This document shows, piece after piece, positions 3,201-33,709 of a DNA stretch of 33,709 nucleotides (positions within the stretch are counted from its first letter, which is position 1; the number at the start of each line of letters is the position of its first letter). The stretch covers positions 1 to 33,709 of the forward strand of contig JAIPJH010000025.1 in assembly GCA_021734245.1 (NCBI GenBank). The letters run 5' to 3'. The notes beneath the pieces were generated by a model. That model worked only from the letters and a program-made list of their open reading frames with translations, was not told the DNA's origin and did not search any database. The position numbers and the translations under genes are program-made. The DNA comes from Candidatus Cloacimonadota bacterium. GTDB taxonomy: Bacteria; Cloacimonadota; Cloacimonadia; Cloacimonadales; TCS61.

Positions 3201-3889
3201 GGAATCACAGCGGAGCGGCACTTGCCAATGTGAAGCTGGAATATTCGGTAGATAACGGTACAAGTTACACAGACATAATTTCATCGACTCCAAATGATGG
3301 CAGTTACAGTTGGAATGTAGCTGATGTGAATTCATCTAATTGTCTTATTCGAATCAGCGATCCGAATGATCCTGATATTAATGATGTTTCCAATGCTAAT
3401 TTCAGAATTTATGGCCCGGTAGATTGGTTGACTATAAATAGTTCGAGTGGATCTTTGAATCAGGGAGAAACTGATGGTTTGATCTTGGATTTTGATACAA
3501 CTGGACTGTCAACAGGAACTTACAATGCAAATATTGAAATTTCCAGTAACGATCAGGATGAGCCATTAATCAACGTTCCTGTATCGCTTATAGTTTCACC
3601 TTCTCAGGCTGCAACTCCCACTGGAATTGCTATTTCTATAGATGAGAGCAATTCCATTTTAAGTTGGAATGTTGTCGCAGATGCCCAGGTTTACAAAATT
3701 TATGCAGCAGATTCTCCCGATGGAACCTTCCAGTTAATGGGAACTTCTACAACTATTTCTTATGATATTTCTACTATAACTGATTCCAAAAAATTCTTTT
3801 ATGTAACTGCGGATAATGAAGCTGCCACAGATGTAATAACCACAGATAATGAAAATTTTAAAAAGAAAATAAGGAAAAATAATGAATAA
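272..3889 (+). CDS. Secreted gingipain-type cysteine peptidase (family C25), multidomain
   Basis: A secreted cysteine endopeptidase. Residues 1-18 form a signal peptide. Residues about 20-205 look like the C25 propeptide. The peptidase domain spans about 235-610, with the catalytic dyad very probably His478 (in HRDHG) and Cys510 (in FSINCLTGKY), matching the gingipain pattern of a His-Gly motif followed by Cys after a hydrophobic strand. Then come an Ig-like stretch (about 710-755), a Gly/Trp-rich beta module resembling choice-of-anchor or DUF4082 domains (about 806-946), a Kre9-type module starting LTSPNGAEVW (about 955-1045), a BACON-like repeat (about 1048-1110) and an FN3-like domain (about 1113-1187). 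At 1205 aa it is long for the family because of these modules. The protein ends in a basic tail (KKKIRKNNE) with no recognisable type IX sorting domain. Its last 8 nt overlap gpmI. Family assignment is confident; processing and surface attachment are inferred. Confidence 0.9.
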   Translation: MRKILIVLIIIFSCILNAEIFNYEDSWNETGFRILENTDSKIKLNYSIQNFELSDFILKGETTKVIPLPGVFLPNDAGMPNLPGSSRYLAIPQNSKVEISNINFRKETISNIEIAPAPRIPLDTEDGPLEYTKNEQVYNSDSFYPESFIQISKPSKIRGIDVLMLGITPFQYNPVTKELIVYRDIEVEISIIGGNGQIGEDRLRSRWWDNILYDSVLNSDVIPEVDYNNREVYRDGAEYLIICPNDPDFLAWADSIKTFRQKQGISTMIVTTTEVGGNTVSAIENYVNNAYNNWTTPPAAVLLLGDYGTVGNTVVSPIWNSYCVSDNIFADVNGNNMPDIVFARMTAQNEIQLQTMITKFLNYERNPPTDPNFYDHPITALGWQTERWFQICSEVVGGYFREVHGKNPVRINAIYSGTPGSTWSTATNTSTVVNYFGPSGVGYIPATPAELGGWSGGTASDVVNAINNGSFILQHRDHGYEQGWGEPSFNSSSIDNLTNTDLSFIFSINCLTGKYNMSGECFTEKFHRYTYNGENSGALGLIAASEVSYSFVNDVYVWGMSDNMWPDFMPSYGTTPDSRDVLPAFGNAAGKYFLAQSSWPYNTNNKEVTYHLFHHHGDAFSTVYSEVPQNISVSHYSTIPIGSTSFNVTADEGSFIALTIDGEILGTADGTGSQVSISIPAIGDSDVLFVTITKQNYYRYEAEIQTVNPADITVSPTSISENLTPDQQSQRTLSISNDGQAGSILYYEILINSDAERNIKNLSSLTKVQLSNPLNVNSIVPVKLESVTSTDATTLKYHDGLAYIVGFTNPGDINCAARFTSTELSSYYTSNEITQVKMVIYTSDFTNCTVKVWEGGHSGNPGPLVYSQDITGSVNIGGWTSHTLSTPIQLISGNEYWVGYSLNYSGSGNPFGADDGPLVVDKGGWYQYNIGSWAQITSSNLNWCIEFVVEESFANLTLTSPNGAEVWAAGTSQNITWNHSGAALANVKLEYSVDNGTSYTDIISSTPNDGSYSWNVADVNSSNCLIRISDPNDPDINDVSNANFRIYGPVDWLTINSSSGSLNQGETDGLILDFDTTGLSTGTYNANIEISSNDQDEPLINVPVSLIVSPSQAATPTGIAISIDESNSILSWNVVADAQVYKIYAADSPDGTFQLMGTSTTISYDISTITDSKKFFYVTADNEAATDVITTDNENFKKKIRKNNE

Positions 3890-5411
3890 AGCTCTACTTT
3901 TGATCTTAGATGGATTCGGCATCAACGAATCAGATTACGGCAATGCCATAAAAGCTGCTAAGACACCGAACTACGATACATTTTATGCTGAAAATCCCCA
4001 CAGCCAGCTTAATGCTTCTGGTTTGAATGTTGGTCTTTTGAAAGGCGATATGGGAAATTCGGAAGTTGGACATCTGAACATCGGTGCCGGAAGAGTGGTT
4101 TACCAGCTCAACAGCCTCATCATGAAGTCCATCGAAGATGGAGATTTCTACCAGAATTCTGTTCTGCTTTCAGCTATCGAGCAGGCAAAGAAAAATACCA
4201 GCAAGCTGCATTTGATGGGACTGCTTTCCGATGGCAATGTGCATACAAATATCGATCATCTCTGGGCACTCCTGAAGCTCTGTAAACAGGAAGGAATGGA
4301 TCAGGTTTATTATCATGCTTTCATGGATGGACGCGACACTCTTCCCCATTCCGGAATAGACTTCATGCAGCAGTTTCTGGAAAAATCCACAGAAATTGGA
4401 ATTGGCAGGATCGCGACTATTTCCGGTCGTTATTATGCCATGGATCGTGATAATCGCTGGGACAGGATCGAAAAAGCTTACGATGCAATCGTGAATGGAA
4501 AAGGAGAAGAATATTCCGATCCGATAGAAGCAATTCAAGGTAGTTATGATGAAGAAATTACCGATGAATTTATAATTCCAAAAGTGATGATCGAAAATGG
4601 TGAACCAGTTGCCAGGATCGAAGAAAACGATGCTGTGATCGCTTTTAATTTTCGGGCAGACAGGATGCGTCAAATTACACGAGCTTTGAAGATACCTGAT
4701 TTTGATAAGTTTGAAAGAACAGAATTCAACAATTTAAAATTCGTAAGTATCAGTGAATATGATATAGAATTCAACGATTATATCGATGTGGCTTATCACT
4801 TGAAAAAAATGGATAATATTCTGGGCAAAATTATTTCCGTTAAAGGGCTGAATCAATTGCGCCTGGCGGAAACTGAAAAATATGCTCATGTAACTTTCTT
4901 TTTTAACGGCGGAGTAGAAAAACCATTCCCAAAAGAAGATAGAATTCTGGTTAATTCACCCCAAGTTGCCACTTACGATCTGCAGCCGGAAATGAGTGCA
5001 TACGAAGTGTGTGATAAACTTATTGATGCAATCAGAAGCGAGAAGTATGACTTGATCATCACTAATTTTGCAAACTGCGATATGGTCGGTCACACGGGTG
5101 TTTTTGAAGCTGCAGTAAAAGCTGTGGAAACTGTAGATAAATGTCTGAACAAGATCATTCCAGCCGCCCGGGAAAATGGTTTTAATATTCTACTGACAGC
5201 CGATCATGGCAACGCCGAAAAAATGCTGGATGAAGAAGGCAGAATTTTTACGGCACACAGTAAAAATCCAGTGCCATTCGTGGTACATTCTCAAAAGAAG
5301 AAAATAGAAAAAATTCAAAATGGAATTTTAGCTGATATCGCTCCCACGATTTTAAATTTGATGGAAATCGAAAAACCGAAGGAAATGACCGGCAATAGTT
5401 TGATAGAGTGA
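3882..5411 (+). CDS. gpmI: 2,3-bisphosphoglycerate-independent phosphoglycerate mutase
   Basis: A cytoplasmic glycolytic/gluconeogenic enzyme interconverting 3- and 2-phosphoglycerate through a phosphoserine intermediate and two Mn ions. At 509 aa it has the usual full length. Visible family motifs are the N-terminal metal site LILDGFG (Asp10), the catalytic serine in GNSEVGH (Ser60), FMDGRDTLP, RDNRWDR in the phosphate-binding insertion, NCDMVGHTG and TADHGNAE supplying the remaining metal ligands. The start ATG lies inside the last codons of the upstream protease gene (ATGAATAA, 8-nt overlap) with an aagga element just before it. The two genes are therefore probably translationally coupled despite unrelated roles. 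The stop is followed directly by a palindromic repeat cluster. Confidence 0.96.
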   Translation: MNKALLLILDGFGINESDYGNAIKAAKTPNYDTFYAENPHSQLNASGLNVGLLKGDMGNSEVGHLNIGAGRVVYQLNSLIMKSIEDGDFYQNSVLLSAIEQAKKNTSKLHLMGLLSDGNVHTNIDHLWALLKLCKQEGMDQVYYHAFMDGRDTLPHSGIDFMQQFLEKSTEIGIGRIATISGRYYAMDRDNRWDRIEKAYDAIVNGKGEEYSDPIEAIQGSYDEEITDEFIIPKVMIENGEPVARIEENDAVIAFNFRADRMRQITRALKIPDFDKFERTEFNNLKFVSISEYDIEFNDYIDVAYHLKKMDNILGKIISVKGLNQLRLAETEKYAHVTFFFNGGVEKPFPKEDRILVNSPQVATYDLQPEMSAYEVCDKLIDAIRSEKYDLIITNFANCDMVGHTGVFEAAVKAVETVDKCLNKIIPAARENGFNILLTADHGNAEKMLDEEGRIFTAHSKNPVPFVVHSQKKKIEKIQNGILADIAPTILNLMEIEKPKEMTGNSLIE

Positions 5412-5416
5412 AAAAG

Positions 5417-5537
5417 CCTTGAAAGGATTTCCATCAGAGAAATTCTTTCAATTCGATCCTTTCAAGGGTTAAAAAATTAAGCATAGAACCTTGAAAAGGT
5501 TGAGCGGGAAGAAAAACCTTATAAACCTTTTCAAGGT
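5417..5537. repeat. Composite palindromic repeat, locus 1 (two hairpins)
   Basis: Two inverted repeats lie in tandem right after the gpmI stop. Hairpin A has 12-bp perfect arms (ccttgaaaggat 5417-5428, atcctttcaagg 5456-5467). Hairpin B has 14-bp perfect arms (accttgaaaaggtt 5488-5501, aaccttttcaaggt 5524-5537), with a loop rich in ggaagaaaa. Both arm sequences and parts of the loops recur downstream of ileS; hairpin B recurs again before icd. No T-run follows, so these are not typical intrinsic terminators. A REP-like mobile or mRNA 3'-end element is the likeliest reading. Confidence 0.85.
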
Positions 5538-5556
5538 AAAAGAATGAGGAGTTGAC

Positions 5557-6006: not shown

Positions 6007-7509
6007 ATGAAAAATATTTTAATGTTTTTTATTTTAATAATTTCCATCAATCTATTTTCCCAAAATTTTGAAGATTTAAATGAGCTTTCTGCAAAAGAAA
6101 CATTTCAATATCTCTCTAATTGGAATGAATTCGATCAACCAGTGAAAACAGGAATTCTGGTAAAAGATTCGATTGCCGTAAATGATACTTTGATTGCGCC
6201 TTTTGCCTACTATATTCCTTCCAACTACAAAGCAACTGAAAGATCTCCGCTTTTCGTTTATCTGCATGGTGGTGTGGGAATTCCGGAATTTTACCCGATT
6301 GAAGATCTTTCTACTGACGATGAATTTGCTGCATTTGCCGAAGAAAATAATATGCTGGCTCTTTTCCCTTCTGCAAACATGTACTGTATGTGGTGGGATG
6401 TGATTGGTGCCGAAAATATTTTGAATCAGATCAAACTAATGAAACGAAAATTCAATGTAGATGATGATAGAGTTTTTGTTTCCGGTATTTCTGATGGAGG
6501 TTCCGGTTCTTTCCATTTGGCAATGACAAGACCCGATGCTTTTGCATCTTTCTATCCAATCATTGGAATGCTGAGTGTAGGTAATCTGGAAAATGGCATG
6601 CACTCATTTCCAACAAATATGAAAAATCGTTTTGTTTCGGCCGTAAATAATAACAATGATGGACTTTATCCAACTAAAAAAATGAGAAAATTGATGAATA
6701 TTGCCCAGGAAGCTGGAGCAGATCTTTTTTACAAAGAAATCTGGGGACCTGGTCATGAAGTACCGTATTTGGAAAATCATCTTAAACTCATGAAATCTCA
6801 AATGCACAAACATCCTCGAGATGCCTTCCAACCGGAACTTTTCTGGGAGGTTGCTGAACCGGAATTCAGCAAAAGCGACTGGCTGGAAATTACCCAGATC
6901 GATACACTACAAGATGTAAAAGAATGGCACGAAATTTACAACGTAAAACTTACCGATAATCGTATGATGTTCGGCTTCAATCATGACCAAGAATATGAAG
7001 GAATGGGAACTAAGATTACAAATATAGTAGAAAATTCTGCTGCCGAAGATGCCGGATTACAAGTTGCTGACATCATCATCGGTATGGATGGAAAAGAAGC
7101 TGCAAATATTGATAGTCTGGTTACCTGGCGTGATGCCAAACAGCGGGGCGATGAATTTTCTTTGACTGTTCTGCGAGACGGAGAGGAAGTTGTGCTGAAA
7201 GGTAGATTTCCCCGTCCGACTGAGTATGATGCTTTCCGTTTTTCTAAAGCATCAGGAGCTGTAAAAGCTCGTTATTACGGAAATATCTTCGAAATTGAAA
7301 CATCACGCGTTAAAGAAATTGCTCTATATTTCCATCCCGAAATGATCAACCTGGAAATTCCGGTGATCGTGAATATAAATGGACAAAAAGTTTTTCATGA
7401 TACAATTGATTTTGATAAAGATTTAATGATCCAGAATTATCAAAAGTGCTTCGATCGTAAAGCACTGTGGATAAATAAATTAACTTTGAATGTTCCAGAG
7501 GAAGTATAA
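6007..7509 (+). CDS. Secreted alpha/beta-hydrolase (esterase) with a C-terminal PDZ domain
   Basis: A signal peptide (about residues 1-19, ending near LFSQ) is followed by an alpha/beta-hydrolase of the feruloyl-esterase / PHB-depolymerase / predicted-peptidase type. The oxyanion strand is FVYLHGG, the nucleophile elbow GISDGG puts Ser162 at the catalytic position, and His250 in GPGHEVPY is the likely catalytic His. Asp218 in NNNNDG is a candidate acid. Residues about 325-400 form a PDZ domain (KITNIVENSAAEDAGL, then ADIIIGMDGKE). The last ~90 residues are beta-rich and unassigned. The start has gagg upstream. Substrate is unknown. A PDZ domain fused to a hydrolase of this kind suggests substrate tethering or self-assembly in the periplasm or outside the cell; this is inference. 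Confidence 0.82.
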   Translation: MKNILMFFILIISINLFSQNFEDLNELSAKETFQYLSNWNEFDQPVKTGILVKDSIAVNDTLIAPFAYYIPSNYKATERSPLFVYLHGGVGIPEFYPIEDLSTDDEFAAFAEENNMLALFPSANMYCMWWDVIGAENILNQIKLMKRKFNVDDDRVFVSGISDGGSGSFHLAMTRPDAFASFYPIIGMLSVGNLENGMHSFPTNMKNRFVSAVNNNNDGLYPTKKMRKLMNIAQEAGADLFYKEIWGPGHEVPYLENHLKLMKSQMHKHPRDAFQPELFWEVAEPEFSKSDWLEITQIDTLQDVKEWHEIYNVKLTDNRMMFGFNHDQEYEGMGTKITNIVENSAAEDAGLQVADIIIGMDGKEAANIDSLVTWRDAKQRGDEFSLTVLRDGEEVVLKGRFPRPTEYDAFRFSKASGAVKARYYGNIFEIETSRVKEIALYFHPEMINLEIPVIVNINGQKVFHDTIDFDKDLMIQNYQKCFDRKALWINKLTLNVPEEV

Positions 7510-7795
7510 TTAAGATTCTTACTAAGAACAACGTGAATGATAAGTCAACCCCTTCGCAAAGCTATGTCTTGGCAGGCCCAGTGGAATTGGAAAAAAACCA
7601 GCAGCAAAGCTGCATTCCACAGGGCAGGCAGAATGACAAATAAAAAAACGCCGTCATCCTGACGTACCTGTTAGCATTACTGAGGAAGGAACTCGTGAAA
7701 GTTCTTGCAGCTTAACTTCACGAATAGCAATTGAGATTCTTCCTGAGAACAACGTGCAAGATACGTCAGAATGACGGTTCAATAAAGGAGACAAA
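7510..7795. repeat. Intergenic composite of nested palindromes and direct repeats
   Basis: No gene. An outer inverted repeat ccgtcatcctgacgta (7651-7666) / tacgtcagaatgacgg (7762-7777) matches at 15 of 16 positions. A near-duplicate of its inner part begins at about 7512 (agattcttactaagaacaac) and 7733 (agattcttcctgagaacaac), so part of the element is present twice as a direct repeat. A third palindrome at about 7575-7625 has arms gcccagtggaat/attccacagggc with an inner gcagc-aaa-gctgc hairpin. It looks like one palindromic element inserted into or next to another. The ribosome binding site of the following gene (aaaggag) starts right after it. Confidence 0.75.
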
Positions 7796-8499: not shown

Positions 8500-11400
8500 A
8501 TGTATAAAACTATAGATATGAAAGAGAAATCCGCTGATCTGGAAAAACAGGTCAGAGAATATTGGATAAAGAAGAACATAGCGCAGAAAAGCGAAGATTT
8601 CAGGGAAGGCTCAGATAAATTTGTTTTTTTTGAAGGACCTCCTACAGCCAACGGAATGCCGGGAATTCATCACGTGATGAGCCGTACCCAGAAAGATACA
8701 GTCTGCCGCTATAAAACAATGAAAGGTTTTCAGGTAAAACGAAAAGCCGGCTGGGATACACACGGACTGCCAGTGGAAATCGAAGTGGAAAAACAACTTG
8801 GTCTGAAAGATAAAAAAGAAGTCGAAGAATACGGACTTGAGAAATTTAATAAAAAATGCCAAGAATCGGTGTTTTCCTACGAAAAAGAATGGCGTGAAAT
8901 GACCAAAGAAATGGGTTATTGGATAAATCTGGATGATCCTTACATTACGCTGAAAAATGATTATATCGAAACCGTCTGGTGGATTTTGAACGATTTCTAC
9001 AAAAAAGGCCTGATCTATAAAGGGCATAAAATCGTTCCTTACTGCCCCAGTTGTGGAACGCCGCTTTCCAGCCATGAAGTAGCTCAAGGTTACAGGGAAA
9101 CAGAAGATCCTTCTGTGTTTGTTAAATTTAAAGCCAAAGCTTGGGAAAATACCTATTTCCTGGCCTGGACTACAACTCCCTGGACGTTAATTTCAAACGT
9201 AGCTCTGGTAGTTCATCCTACTGAAACTTATGTAAAAGTGAAACATCACGCTGAATTTCTGATTCTGGCAAAAGCACGTTTGGATGTGTTGGATGACGAA
9301 TATGAGATTGTGGAAGAATTTGCCGGAAAAGATTTGGAATATAAAGATTACGAACAGCTTTTTCCATTTGTAAATCCAGATAAGAAAGCTTTCTTCATAG
9401 GATTGGCAGATTACGTGACAATGGAAGATGGAACCGGTGTTGTTCACACAGCTCCGGCATTTGGTCAGGATGACTACGAACTTGGTCAGAAGTATGATCT
9501 TCCCGTAATTCAGCCAGTAGATGAAGCAGGAAAGTTTAAAGATGTAATTTCAGATTGGAAAGGTGAATTCGTGAAAGATGCCGATAAAGGCATCATCAAA
9601 AATATGAATCAGCGCGGCGTGCTTTACAAGCGTAAACAGATCGTGCACAGTTATCCGTTCTGCTGGCGCTGCGACAGTCCGCTCATCTATTACGCTCGTT
9701 CCAGCTGGTACATCAAAACCAGTGAATACAAACAGCAGATGATCGAAAATAATAAGCAGATCAAATGGTATCCGCCATTTGTAGGTGAAAAACGTTTTGG
9801 TGAATGGTTGGAAAACAACGTTGACTGGGCAATTTCCAGAAATCGTTTTTGGGGAACTCCGCTCAATATCTGGGTTTGCCAGGAATGCGGTGAATTCGAA
9901 AGTGCAGGATCTATAGAAGAACTGAGAGAAAAAGGCGTTTTGAAAAATGGTGAGGCTGTTCCCGAAGATATTGAACTTCACCGTCCTTACGTGGATGAGA
10001 TCGAAATGAAATGCAAATGCGGTGGTAAAATGCTGCGTACACCGGAAGTTATTGATTGCTGGTTCGACAGCGGTTCGATGCCGTTCGCTCAGTGGCATTA
10101 TCCGTTTGAAAATAAAGAAAGATTCGAAAAAGAACTTTTCCCGGCAGATTTTATCAGTGAAGGAATCGATCAGACTCGCGGCTGGTTCTATTCACTTCTG
10201 GCAATTTCCACGATGCTGACTGGAAAATCCTCTTACAAAGCTTGCCTTGTAAATGATCTGATCCTGGACAAAAAAGGCCAGAAGATGAGCAAGAGCAAAG
10301 GCAATTCTGTAAATCCGATAAAATTGATGGATGAATTTGGTGCTGATGCAATTCGCTGGTATCTGCTGGCTGTCAGCCCCCCCTGGATTCCCACTAAATT
10401 TGATGAAAACGGCGTTAAAGAGATCGTGAATAAATTCTTCGGCACCCTGAAGAATGTTTATTCCTTTTACGTTACTTATGCCAATATCGACAAATTCGAT
10501 GCTTCCAAATATGAACTTTCAGAGCAGAAGAGTTCCGAGATAGATAAATGGATCATGTCTCGCTTGAATTCTGTAACTAGAGATGTAACAAAGAATTTCG
10601 ATAACTTTGATTTGACCAAAGCTGTGCGATCTATTCAGGGCTTTGTTATCGATGATCTTAGCAACTGGTATGTTCGCCGCAGTCGTCGTCGTTATTGGGA
10701 ATTGGAACTTACAGAAGATAAAATAGATGCTTATCTCACACTTTATCAGGTACTTGTTTCCGTCACGAAATTAATGGCTCCGGTTGCTCCATTTCTGGCA
10801 GAAGAGATTTTCACGAATCTTACCGGAAAAGAAAGTGTTCATCTGGAAGACTTCCCCACTTCCAACCAGAAAGTAGTTTTACCCAAGTTGGAAGAAGAAA
10901 TGCAGACTGTTATTGATCTGGTTTCTCTAGGTCGTGCAGCTCGAAATACCTGTCAGATCAAGGTTCGCCAAACTTTAGGTGCACTTTACATTCCGGCAAA
11001 ATATCATCATCTGGTTCAGAGAATGGAAAGCTTGATCAAAGAAGAAATAAACGTGAAAGAAATAAAATACATCCAGGAAAAAGATGATTTCGTAAAGTAC
11101 GAATTCAAGCCGAACTTTAAGGTGATGGGACCAAAATACGGCAAACATATGAAACGCATCGCTGCTGCTTTACAGGAAATGGATGCAGATCATATCGTGG
11201 AAATTCTGCACCAGGGAAAAGATTACTTCCTGGAAGTAGACGGCAGTTCATTCAAGCTTACTGAAGAAGATTTGATCATTTCCATCAAAGATAAAGAAGG
11301 CTTCGTATTTGAAACAAATAAAGATCTTTACGTTGCTTTGGATACTCATCTTACACCGGAACTGATCCAGGAAGGATTGGCCCGGGAGTTGGTTAATAAA

Positions 11401-11622
11401 ATCCAATATACCCGCAAAGAATCAGGTTTGGAGATCATGGATCGCATCAAGGTTTTCTATTGTGGCGATAATGAAGTCGATGCTGTGTTCTCAAAATTTG
11501 CGGATTACATTCAAAATGAAACTCTTACCAATTCCTGCCATCGAGTTACAGAACGTCATGAAGATGGAACAACCTGGGATGTTAATGGCAAGGAAGTGTG
11601 GCTGGCAGTAACAAAAGATTAA
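8500..11622 (+). CDS. ileS: Isoleucyl-tRNA synthetase, type 2 (eukaryote-like) form
   Basis: Charges tRNA-Ile in the cytoplasm; class I synthetase of 1040 aa. Visible motifs are the HIGH-equivalent GIHH (residues 55-58, after FFEGPPTANGMP), GWDTHGLPVE, the CP1 editing domain with TTTPWTL and GTGVVHTAPAFGQDDY, DWAISRNRFWGTPL, and KMSKS at 595-599. A CxxC pair and a CKC motif in the middle are possible zinc sites. The C-terminus (EGLARELVNKIQYTRKESGL, then DRIKVFY) is of the type 2 kind and lacks the four-cysteine zinc finger that ends classical bacterial IleRS. By family knowledge, type 2 enzymes are often less sensitive to mupirocin. The ribosome binding site (caggag) lies in the end of the preceding gene. 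Confidence 0.96.
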   Translation: MYKTIDMKEKSADLEKQVREYWIKKNIAQKSEDFREGSDKFVFFEGPPTANGMPGIHHVMSRTQKDTVCRYKTMKGFQVKRKAGWDTHGLPVEIEVEKQLGLKDKKEVEEYGLEKFNKKCQESVFSYEKEWREMTKEMGYWINLDDPYITLKNDYIETVWWILNDFYKKGLIYKGHKIVPYCPSCGTPLSSHEVAQGYRETEDPSVFVKFKAKAWENTYFLAWTTTPWTLISNVALVVHPTETYVKVKHHAEFLILAKARLDVLDDEYEIVEEFAGKDLEYKDYEQLFPFVNPDKKAFFIGLADYVTMEDGTGVVHTAPAFGQDDYELGQKYDLPVIQPVDEAGKFKDVISDWKGEFVKDADKGIIKNMNQRGVLYKRKQIVHSYPFCWRCDSPLIYYARSSWYIKTSEYKQQMIENNKQIKWYPPFVGEKRFGEWLENNVDWAISRNRFWGTPLNIWVCQECGEFESAGSIEELREKGVLKNGEAVPEDIELHRPYVDEIEMKCKCGGKMLRTPEVIDCWFDSGSMPFAQWHYPFENKERFEKELFPADFISEGIDQTRGWFYSLLAISTMLTGKSSYKACLVNDLILDKKGQKMSKSKGNSVNPIKLMDEFGADAIRWYLLAVSPPWIPTKFDENGVKEIVNKFFGTLKNVYSFYVTYANIDKFDASKYELSEQKSSEIDKWIMSRLNSVTRDVTKNFDNFDLTKAVRSIQGFVIDDLSNWYVRRSRRRYWELELTEDKIDAYLTLYQVLVSVTKLMAPVAPFLAEEIFTNLTGKESVHLEDFPTSNQKVVLPKLEEEMQTVIDLVSLGRAARNTCQIKVRQTLGALYIPAKYHHLVQRMESLIKEEINVKEIKYIQEKDDFVKYEFKPNFKVMGPKYGKHMKRIAAALQEMDADHIVEILHQGKDYFLEVDGSSFKLTEEDLIISIKDKEGFVFETNKDLYVALDTHLTPELIQEGLARELVNKIQYTRKESGLEIMDRIKVFYCGDNEVDAVFSKFADYIQNETLTNSCHRVTERHEDGTTWDVNGKEVWLAVTKD

Positions 11623-11629
11623 AAAAAAA

Positions 11630-11808
11630 ACCTTGAAAGGATTTCATTCAGAGAAATTTTTTCAGGTCGATCCTTTCAATGGTTGGTGATGTGAAACTCT
11701 GAAAAGCTCTCTTCTGCAAATTCTTGCACTGGAGACTTTCTGAGTTGAATGTAGAAAAACCTTGAAAAGGTTCAGCAGGAAGAAAAGCCTTTTAAACCTA
11801 TTCAAGGT
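11630..11808. repeat. Composite palindromic repeat, locus 2 (three hairpins)
   Basis: Right after the ileS stop, and clearly related to the repeat after gpmI. Hairpin A: ttgaaaggat (11633-11642) pairs with atcctttcaa (11670-11679), and the loop shares the ttcagagaaatt core with locus 1. Hairpin B: accttgaaaaggtt (11759-11772) / aacctattcaaggt (11795-11808), one mismatch, with the same ggaagaaaa loop. Between them is ~80 nt absent from locus 1 containing another imperfect hairpin (aactctgaaaagc... / gagactttctgagtt). The order A-B is conserved, so the composite moves or is copied as a unit. Confidence 0.85.
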
Positions 11809-11855
11809 TAAATAAAAAGAAATAATTAAAAATATAGATCAGGAGAATTTGAAAA

Positions 11856-13227: not shown

Positions 13228-14397
13228 TTGAAATTTAAGTTCCTGATAATTTTTGTTTTGCTTTTTTCGATTTTATTTTCACAAGAAAATATAACCAACG
13301 CCAAGAAAGAACGTTCAATTTTCAGACCTGTTATTTTTGGTCTTGTTTATCCTCTTTCCACAAACCACTCTAAACATGACAGCACCTATCTGAATTTAGC
13401 CCTGATCCAGAATACAGTGGGAAAAGTGAAAGGTGTAAATTTATGCGGTTTTTCTGCTGTAAGTTCAAAATCCGTAAAAGGAATTCAAGGTTCTCTCCTC
13501 TACTCACAGATTAACGAAAATCTGAAAGGTGTGTCTTTTTCAACTATTAACGTGGTAAATCACAACATTAAAGGAGTTCAATTCGGTACTGCAGCAAATT
13601 TGCTGGGTGGTAGTTTCGTTGGATTTCAGAGTTCTGGAATTGTAAATTTTCTGGGCGGAAATTTTGTGGGATATCAGCAATCGACGGTTTTCAATATTGT
13701 AGGAAAATCATTTGTGGGACTGCAAACTGCCGGAGCCGGCAATGTTGTGGGCGGCAATTTCAAAGGTGTGCAATTTGGATCGTCTTTCAATTTTGTGGGA
13801 AAAGTGATGAAAGGACTACAGTGGTCTGGAGTTAACGTTTGTGCGGAATTAACAGGACTGCAAGTTGGCTGGATAAATATTTCTCAGATCAATCATAAAT
13901 GGCAGATCGGTGTGATGAATCTGGCGGAAGAACAAAAGGGAATTCCGGTTGGATTAATAAACATTTCCGATGATGGAGATATTCAATGGCAGAACTATGT
14001 AAGCAATTTTGCCGGTTTTGTTACAGCAGTCAGGTTTATATCAAATAATTTTGTTTCTAGCGTGGAAATGGGAGCTCCCAATTTAAAATCAGATTACGAT
14101 AGCTCTGCCCTGTTAGGTTTTCATTATGGATATCGCTGGCTAATTCACAAATTTGGATTGGAAACCGACCTGGGATTCTTCCATATAGAAAATTTTGATG
14201 AAGACGGAAACAACGATTATCCAGATAATTTCGCTCTTCAGCTACGTTTCTCTGCAACTTTCAGAATTAACAAATGGCTGGAAATTTATGGCGGTTTTGG
14301 TGGTTCCACAATGAGTGAATATGTTCTGGAAGAAGACGCTGAATCGATCGATAATGAAGATAGTTATCTTTATTTTGCAGGAATTAATCTGTTTTAG
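13228..14397 (+). CDS. Outer-membrane-type protein with 16-residue surface repeats (LA_2272-like)
   Basis: I place the start at TTG 13228. It is preceded by ggag at correct spacing and yields a clean signal peptide (KFKFLIIFVLLFSILFSQ); the frame stays open to 13123 but begins inside a terminator there. The mature part contains tandem repeats. Residues 115-194 hold five units of exactly 16 residues, such as KGVQFGTAANLLGGSF and VGFQSSGIVNFLGGNF, with looser units on both sides (consensus xG[VFLY]Qxxxxx N xxG xx F). This resembles the LA_2272-type surface repeat proteins. The C-terminal ~150 residues look like beta-strands of a barrel and end in Phe (FAGINLF), as outer-membrane proteins do. 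It is followed after 8 nt by a DUF3943 gene, likely in the same operon. Function is unknown. Confidence 0.8.
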   Translation: MKFKFLIIFVLLFSILFSQENITNAKKERSIFRPVIFGLVYPLSTNHSKHDSTYLNLALIQNTVGKVKGVNLCGFSAVSSKSVKGIQGSLLYSQINENLKGVSFSTINVVNHNIKGVQFGTAANLLGGSFVGFQSSGIVNFLGGNFVGYQQSTVFNIVGKSFVGLQTAGAGNVVGGNFKGVQFGSSFNFVGKVMKGLQWSGVNVCAELTGLQVGWINISQINHKWQIGVMNLAEEQKGIPVGLINISDDGDIQWQNYVSNFAGFVTAVRFISNNFVSSVEMGAPNLKSDYDSSALLGFHYGYRWLIHKFGLETDLGFFHIENFDEDGNNDYPDNFALQLRFSATFRINKWLEIYGGFGGSTMSEYVLEEDAESIDNEDSYLYFAGINLF

Positions 14398-32231: not shown

Positions 32232-32935
32232 ATTAACCATCCCCAATATTTTTTAGAATATTCACTTTTAAAAACAGAGTTTATTTTTGCAACAAAAAAT
32301 AAAAAAAGTTGTTATTATATTGATTTACAAGATGTAAAAAAAAGTTTAAATAGCTCCGTGATTTATCTCGGGGTGATAATTTTTGAAAACAAAAACGGGC
32401 TTCAGCCCAAATGGAGGGTTAAAATTTAATTTTTTTTTATTTTTTCTTCCACGAGCTAAAGCACGTGGCAATTCAAAATCGTGGACTGGACTTCAGAACA
32501 CAAAGATTAGATTCGTTCTCAACACCAATCTCGCTTTGCTCTTCCAAACTCGAGCTCGAAAAAGAGCTTTCCGACAGCTTCTGTAAGAATCTGCGAAAGA
32601 AGCTGTCGGAAAGGGATGCAGAACCATTGCGGAGGTCTAACGACCATCCGCAAGGTATCGAGGTTGGTTCAATCGTCTCGATTGAACTTATTGTTTTTAC
32701 TGATCGTCCACGATCAGATATGTGGAATTTTCAAGACGAAAAAATTGTAAATGCTCAGACTCCACGAGACGTGAAGCCCAACAAGTAATCCGTGTTCATC
32801 AGCGGCAAAAGAGATCCTTCATACCTGTGTCGGCGAAGTTACACGAAGCCGTAAGAACAACGAATTTAACTCACCTCATACCGAAAGTATTCGAAGCACC
32901 ATTCTCAAAAGAGGATATTTTTTTTTGCTGTAAGA

Positions 32936-32988
32936 AACCTTGAAAAGGTTTATTAAAAAGTATCATCCTCGTAAACCTTTTCAAGGTT
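32936..32988. repeat. Composite palindromic repeat, locus 3 (hairpin B only)
   Basis: The best-preserved copy of the family seen after gpmI and ileS: 17-bp perfect arms aaccttgaaaaggttta (32936-32952) / taaaccttttcaaggtt (32972-32988). Hairpin A is absent here. On the minus strand it lies just past the terminator of icd. Confidence 0.85.
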
Positions 32989-32991
32989 AAC

Positions 32992-33016
32992 AAAAAAAAA
33001 CCCCGAAACTCGAGGG
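32992..33016 (-). terminator. Intrinsic terminator downstream of icd
   Basis: On the minus strand a 6-bp stem cctcga / tcgggg (one T-G pair) with a gtt loop, formed within 33001-33016, is followed by nine T residues (complement of the a-run 32992-33000). It sits about 90 nt after the isocitrate dehydrogenase stop. Confidence 0.65.
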
Positions 33017-33107
33017 CTTTTAATTTGCTTTTTCTTTTTCCTCCCCCCTGTAAAGGGTGAATCAAAAAGGGGTTTGATTTTATAAACTTAAAAAATCAAT
33101 CACTATT

Positions 33108-33709
<602 letters not shown>

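Follow-up and report, generated by a model that had tools for sequence, protein, structure and literature searches.

Palindromic Hairpins in the Window

The window analyzed here, a 33,709-nt stretch of contig JAIPJH010000025.1 of a Candidatus Cloacimonadota bacterium, carries three loci with palindromic repeats. A search of the window with a covariance model derived from 35 genome copies of the hairpin returned exactly six hairpins at E ≤ 1. The first locus consists of an A-type hairpin in plus orientation (5415–5469; 54.3 bits with model R1, to which all of the scores given below also refer), located 3 nt past the stop codon of a gpmI-like gene (3882–5411), and of a B-type hairpin in the minus orientation of its type (5487–5538; 53.8 bits), located 18 nt ahead of the next gene. 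At the second locus, an A-type hairpin in plus orientation (11629–11683; 48.2 bits) is found 6 nt past the stop codon of an ileS-like gene (8500–11622), and it opens an A+ C− B− mosaic with a C-type hairpin in the middle (11695–11746, minus; 39.8 bits) and a B-type hairpin at the end (11758–11809, minus; 47.4 bits). The third locus belongs to an icd-like gene on the minus strand with a stop codon at 33108; the gene is followed by a terminator-like stem with a T-run, and then by a B-type hairpin in minus orientation (32936–32988; 67.0 bits).

An earlier note on this DNA, made from the sequence alone, had described composite palindromes at 5417–5537, 11630–11808, and 32936–32988, two of them close behind stop codons and the third beyond the icd terminator. 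All three loci are real, and their positions relative to the genes were described correctly, but they comprise six hairpins, not five. At 11630–11808, the A and B units are indeed present, but the third member, the C hairpin, which belongs to the same superfamily and has a C arm, had been left undescribed. The predicted folds are far better than those of shuffled sequences, with z-scores of −5.8 at 5405–5545 and −6.7 at 32930–32995, and none of the 200 shuffles was equally good in either case. The hairpin loci also constitute the top direct-repeat family within the window. In an Rfam search of the window for known RNA families, the threshold was reached by one tRNA only and by none of the hairpins.

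The surroundings of the third locus recur elsewhere in the genome. A 208-nt segment of the window (32813–33020), in which the terminator-like stem and this B hairpin are both included, shares 91% identity with the sequence that follows a gdhA-like gene on contig C12, and parts of this segment are also found on contigs C1 and C45. The terminator and the B hairpin of this segment may have been copied together.

Repeat Family across the Genome

The arm AACCTTGAAAAGGTT, searched with at most one mismatch, has 65 matches in the 3.11-Mb genome, compared with one match for the reversed control, and a genome-wide BLASTN search with the 121-nt unit gave 86 matches. The covariance model yielded at least about 98 genome matches, a figure in which some of the palindromes appear twice, once per strand, and it also has matches in 24 other genomes. 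In the genome stretches examined, 66 well-formed hairpins sort into four subtypes, designated A, B, C, and R. The unit is AT-rich and about 53 nt long, and is built of inverted arms of about 15 bp and a variable loop. The arm is self-palindromic in the symmetric types only, not in R or C; the latter two types retain a GT/CT mismatch at arm positions 11–12. Stem pairing is retained through double changes, which were counted in 51 cells versus 14.7 in shuffles. At many loci, the subtypes are arranged in fixed mosaics, A+ C− B− and C− R+, with the 5415–5538 locus being without C, and tandem arrays of 122 and 83 nt are found on contig C73.

The tags that define the known REP superfamilies were also looked for. 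GTAG or its complement was located within 8 nt of the hairpin foot in about five of the 66 copies, thus forming no conserved tag, and CGTC was located there in none of them. Since neither tag is conserved, the family was not filed in the GTAG- or CGTC-tagged REP superfamilies.

The same searches bear on the possibility, raised in the earlier note as one that would speak against a mobile repeat, that the genome holds no further copies, or only what has been vertically inherited from one segmental duplication. The placement of the 32936 copy inside the segment shared with the gdhA-like locus is what such an event would leave behind; nevertheless, dozens of unrelated flanks, the division into four subtypes, the empty sites in relatives described below, and the matches in other genomes make a single duplication hardly credible. 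It was rejected on the grounds of copy number, unrelated flanks, and empty sites.

Placement Relative to Genes

For the placement counts, genes were called by a simple codon-usage script. The hairpins form 39 clusters, 37 of which overlap no called gene, while the remaining two overlap ORF ends only. With regard to the neighboring genes, 24 clusters are situated in co-directional gaps, 10 in convergent and three in divergent gaps, and two at contig ends. A gene 3′ end adjoins 34 of the clusters; for 19 of these, the stop codon is no more than 20 nt away, versus 8.4 expected under uniform placement in the same gap. In eight clusters, the gene terminates at a TGA that belongs to the hairpin arm. 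The mosaics are oriented relative to transcription as well: in co-directional gaps, A+ was observed in 8/8, C− in 13/14, R+ in 8/9, and B− in 7/8 clusters.

A role as intrinsic terminators was considered and rejected. As was stated in the earlier note for the loci of the window, the hairpins lack a T-run on their downstream side in the sense direction; at least six T in the next 10 nt were found for only one of 23 co-directional clusters.

The preference for stop codons, the single orientation relative to transcription (A+ and C− clusters above all), the retention of the stem through double changes, and a compensated change at a B site shared with a congener (see below) would also be expected if the hairpins were RNA elements at mRNA 3′ ends, which block exonucleases or end transcription and are kept by selection with no spread by a transposase. 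This explanation is improbable: the T-run is absent, the orthologous sites of congeners mostly lack a hairpin or carry one of another type, and it does not account for nine genomes having a transposase gene flanked by these hairpins. Protection of mRNA 3′ ends, which the earlier note had offered as an alternative, may still be a secondary use of the hairpins.

RAYT-Like Transposase and Its Flanking Hairpins

The earlier note had proposed a REP/MITE-like element moved by a RAYT-type enzyme encoded elsewhere, and a search for such a gene was successful. Nine Y1_Tnp matches were found in the genome. The gene of a RAYT-like Y1 transposase of 198 aa (P0001; C73:13250–13846) has an R hairpin on either side, the two of them identical, as well as arrays of C hairpins, i.e., it is flanked on both sides by the hairpin family of the window. 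The flanks of this gene are of types C and R, and types A and B, as found in the window, do not occur there; in genome G008, A and B hairpins follow a RAYT gene at a plus-strand locus. The Pfam Y1_Tnp match of P0001 exceeds the cut-off. The best and only NCBIfam model, NF047646 (REP-associated tyrosine transposase), scored 76.8 bits, which is below its curated cut-off of 80. In the PDB, only E. coli TnpA_REP (4er8) was matched, and Y116 of P0001 aligns with the tyrosine of the YIYINP motif of 4er8. The HUH residues H56/H58 are found in 24/24 relatives, and Tyr116 in 23/24. The reading frame of the transposase enters a C hairpin (13789–13846, locus L087), and thus the last ~20 residues are encoded by the repeat.

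Analysis of the ten most similar RAYT loci, which come from nine genomes, revealed that all of them have an R-type hairpin in plus orientation upstream of the gene and another one downstream. The distance from the end of the upstream R hairpin to the RAYT start codon is 15–19 nt in nine of these loci, and in the tenth (genome G010) the start codon is uncertain. In the same ten loci, the sequences of the flanking hairpins change together with the RAYT. In RAYTs of lower similarity, among them the second RAYT of this genome, comparable positions are taken by other palindromes. A scan of genome contigs yielded only distant RAYT loci.

The hairpins might also be miniature elements of some other transposon, such as an ordinary IS200/IS605 insertion sequence or an IS of the DDE type, among which the RAYT had inserted as a passenger. 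Two IS200-type Y1 genes are indeed present elsewhere in the genome, on contigs C27 and C31, but neither is adjoined by these hairpins, and both the fixed spacing between the R hairpin and the RAYT start and the co-divergence of hairpins and RAYT oppose the passenger scenario, which makes this explanation very unlikely.

The second RAYT-like gene of the genome (P0002) is found on the minus strand at C7:58228–58776 (1229–1777 of locus L096), and the palindromes on its flanks, ACTTTCCGAAA..., have a similar layout but belong to an unrelated family. With its own family of palindromes next to it, several RAYT–repeat pairs seem to coexist in this genome.

Comparison with Related Genomes

Over 59 genomes, hairpin counts, which are lower bounds, correlate with the score of the best RAYT match (Spearman 0.75, kinship ignored), and the correlation within the family is 0.80 (kinship likewise ignored). 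The exceptions are two genomes with 12 and 19 hairpin matches but no RAYT match, and one genome with a RAYT but zero hairpin matches. Together with the empty sites in relatives, the tracking of similar RAYTs by copy number further supports the REP/MITE-like reading.

A clean pair of a filled and an empty site was found in an operon at C73:3901–4014, where the 151 nt with a C–R pair in this genome correspond to 6 nt in the congener G002. Most orthologous sites in the congeners are likewise empty or occupied by another type. In G001 and G002, the counterpart of the gene that precedes the RAYT here has no RAYT after it, and the RAYT loci of G000 and G002 have nothing in common beyond the RAYT with its hairpins and a single match of 27 bp.

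The junctions occupied in the window were compared as well. In most other genera, the junction between ileS and the DUF1015 gene is 11–45 nt long and free of hairpins, while two have longer gaps with other sequence. This genome carries the A–C–B set at this junction, the congener G001 carries a C hairpin and a decayed R-like unit, and the congener G002 has another palindrome family, which resembles that of the second RAYT of G002. In the window, the junction spans 11623–11855; with three palindrome sets in three sister species, it appears as an insertion hot spot. The gpmI junction is 6–63 nt long and hairpin-free in other genomes, except for G002, which carries a diverged copy of the 5487–5538 B hairpin, the arms of the two copies differing by a compensated change. 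Since this diverged B copy with its compensated change is shared with G002, the B hairpin is older than the A hairpin at the gpmI junction.

Proposed Origin and Relation to Known Systems

The features listed above, namely short, high-copy, dispersed extragenic palindromes, oriented mosaics of several types, and a RAYT gene flanked by the same repeats, are those by which REP/BIME elements are recognized. Thus, in all likelihood, the three loci of the window are extragenic palindromes of the REP/BIME type, untagged and spread by a cognate RAYT, and the hairpins have very probably been copied around the genome by a RAYT whose gene lies between them; in both statements, movement is inferred. By analogy with TnpA_REP, for which hairpin recognition, cutting, and single-strand copying have been proposed (PMC8266576), the RAYT would recognize the folded single-stranded hairpin, cut beside it, and spread it in trans by a single-strand route. 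The copies would persist where they are least harmful, i.e., between genes and just behind stop codons, which is proposed to give rise to their 3′-end pattern, and any effects on mRNA ends would be secondary. A more specific version of this model is put forward only tentatively. The mobile unit might be the C− R+ composite, with parts resembling left and right ends, and the RAYT would be placed between two such composites, its start codon about 15 nt past the end of R. The internal GT/CT mismatch, together with the loop, might be recognized in place of a GTAG foot. Newly made copies might be inserted directly behind stop codons, always with the same orientation relative to transcription.

Several published systems show similarities to this family. 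The best-matching one is the untagged TIRtron/TIRYT group, in which the palindromic repeats on either side of a RAYT-like gene have no relation to GTAG REPs; four TIRYT groups have been described (Di Nocera et al. 2013, PMC3733652), and in S. maltophilia the TIRtron repeats are also reported to be dispersed through the genome, as dimers and clusters. As in TIRtrons, a RAYT-like gene is located here between untagged palindromes, and the same repeats are dispersed genome-wide, including dimers and clusters. In contrast to TIRtrons, the present family has another sequence and at least four subtypes that interlock in fixed mosaics, one hairpin is placed uniformly about 15 nt before the RAYT start, and the GGGGWSAS motif was not seen in the consensus. 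With the E. coli REP/BIME and TnpA_REP system (PMC8266576, PMC3733652), the family shares high-copy extragenic palindromes near gene 3′ ends, multi-type mosaics, a cognate HUH Y1 transposase, stop codons supplied by repeat arms, and a conserved 2 × 2 stem mismatch, which is found here in types R and C and is AA/GC in E. coli. It differs in being AT-rich, in its length (about 53 nt versus 20–40 nt), and in the absence of the GTAG/CGTC foot. The REPINs of P. fluorescens consist of two inverted copies of a conserved 15-mer with a variable spacer (Bertels and Rainey 2011, PMC3116915); here too, inverted arms and a variable spacer make up one hairpin linked to a specific RAYT, but the unit is shorter, and the arms may not be REPs in their own right, those of R and C not being self-palindromic.

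In the literature search, no earlier report of repetitive extragenic palindromic repeats was found for Cloacimonadota. The RAYT–REP partnership is thereby extended to a lineage for which none had been found, where a genome encodes several RAYTs and hairpin families that diverge from one another coexist. Junctions of the ileS type, at which each of three sister species has a hairpin set of its own and most other genera have no hairpins, could make the gain, loss, and RAYT–repeat specificity of such elements accessible by comparison alone.

Other Repeats

Two further observations concern repeats of other kinds. On contig C96 (around 10402–10638, locus L098), a Y1-like gene is present whose C-terminal frame holds palindromes of another dispersed kind, TTCCCAAACTCC...GGAGTTTGGGAA. 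In the window, a 40-nt direct repeat with 85% identity is found at 7508–7547 and 7729–7768, 221 nt apart, at and beyond the 3′ end of the gene located at 6007–7509.
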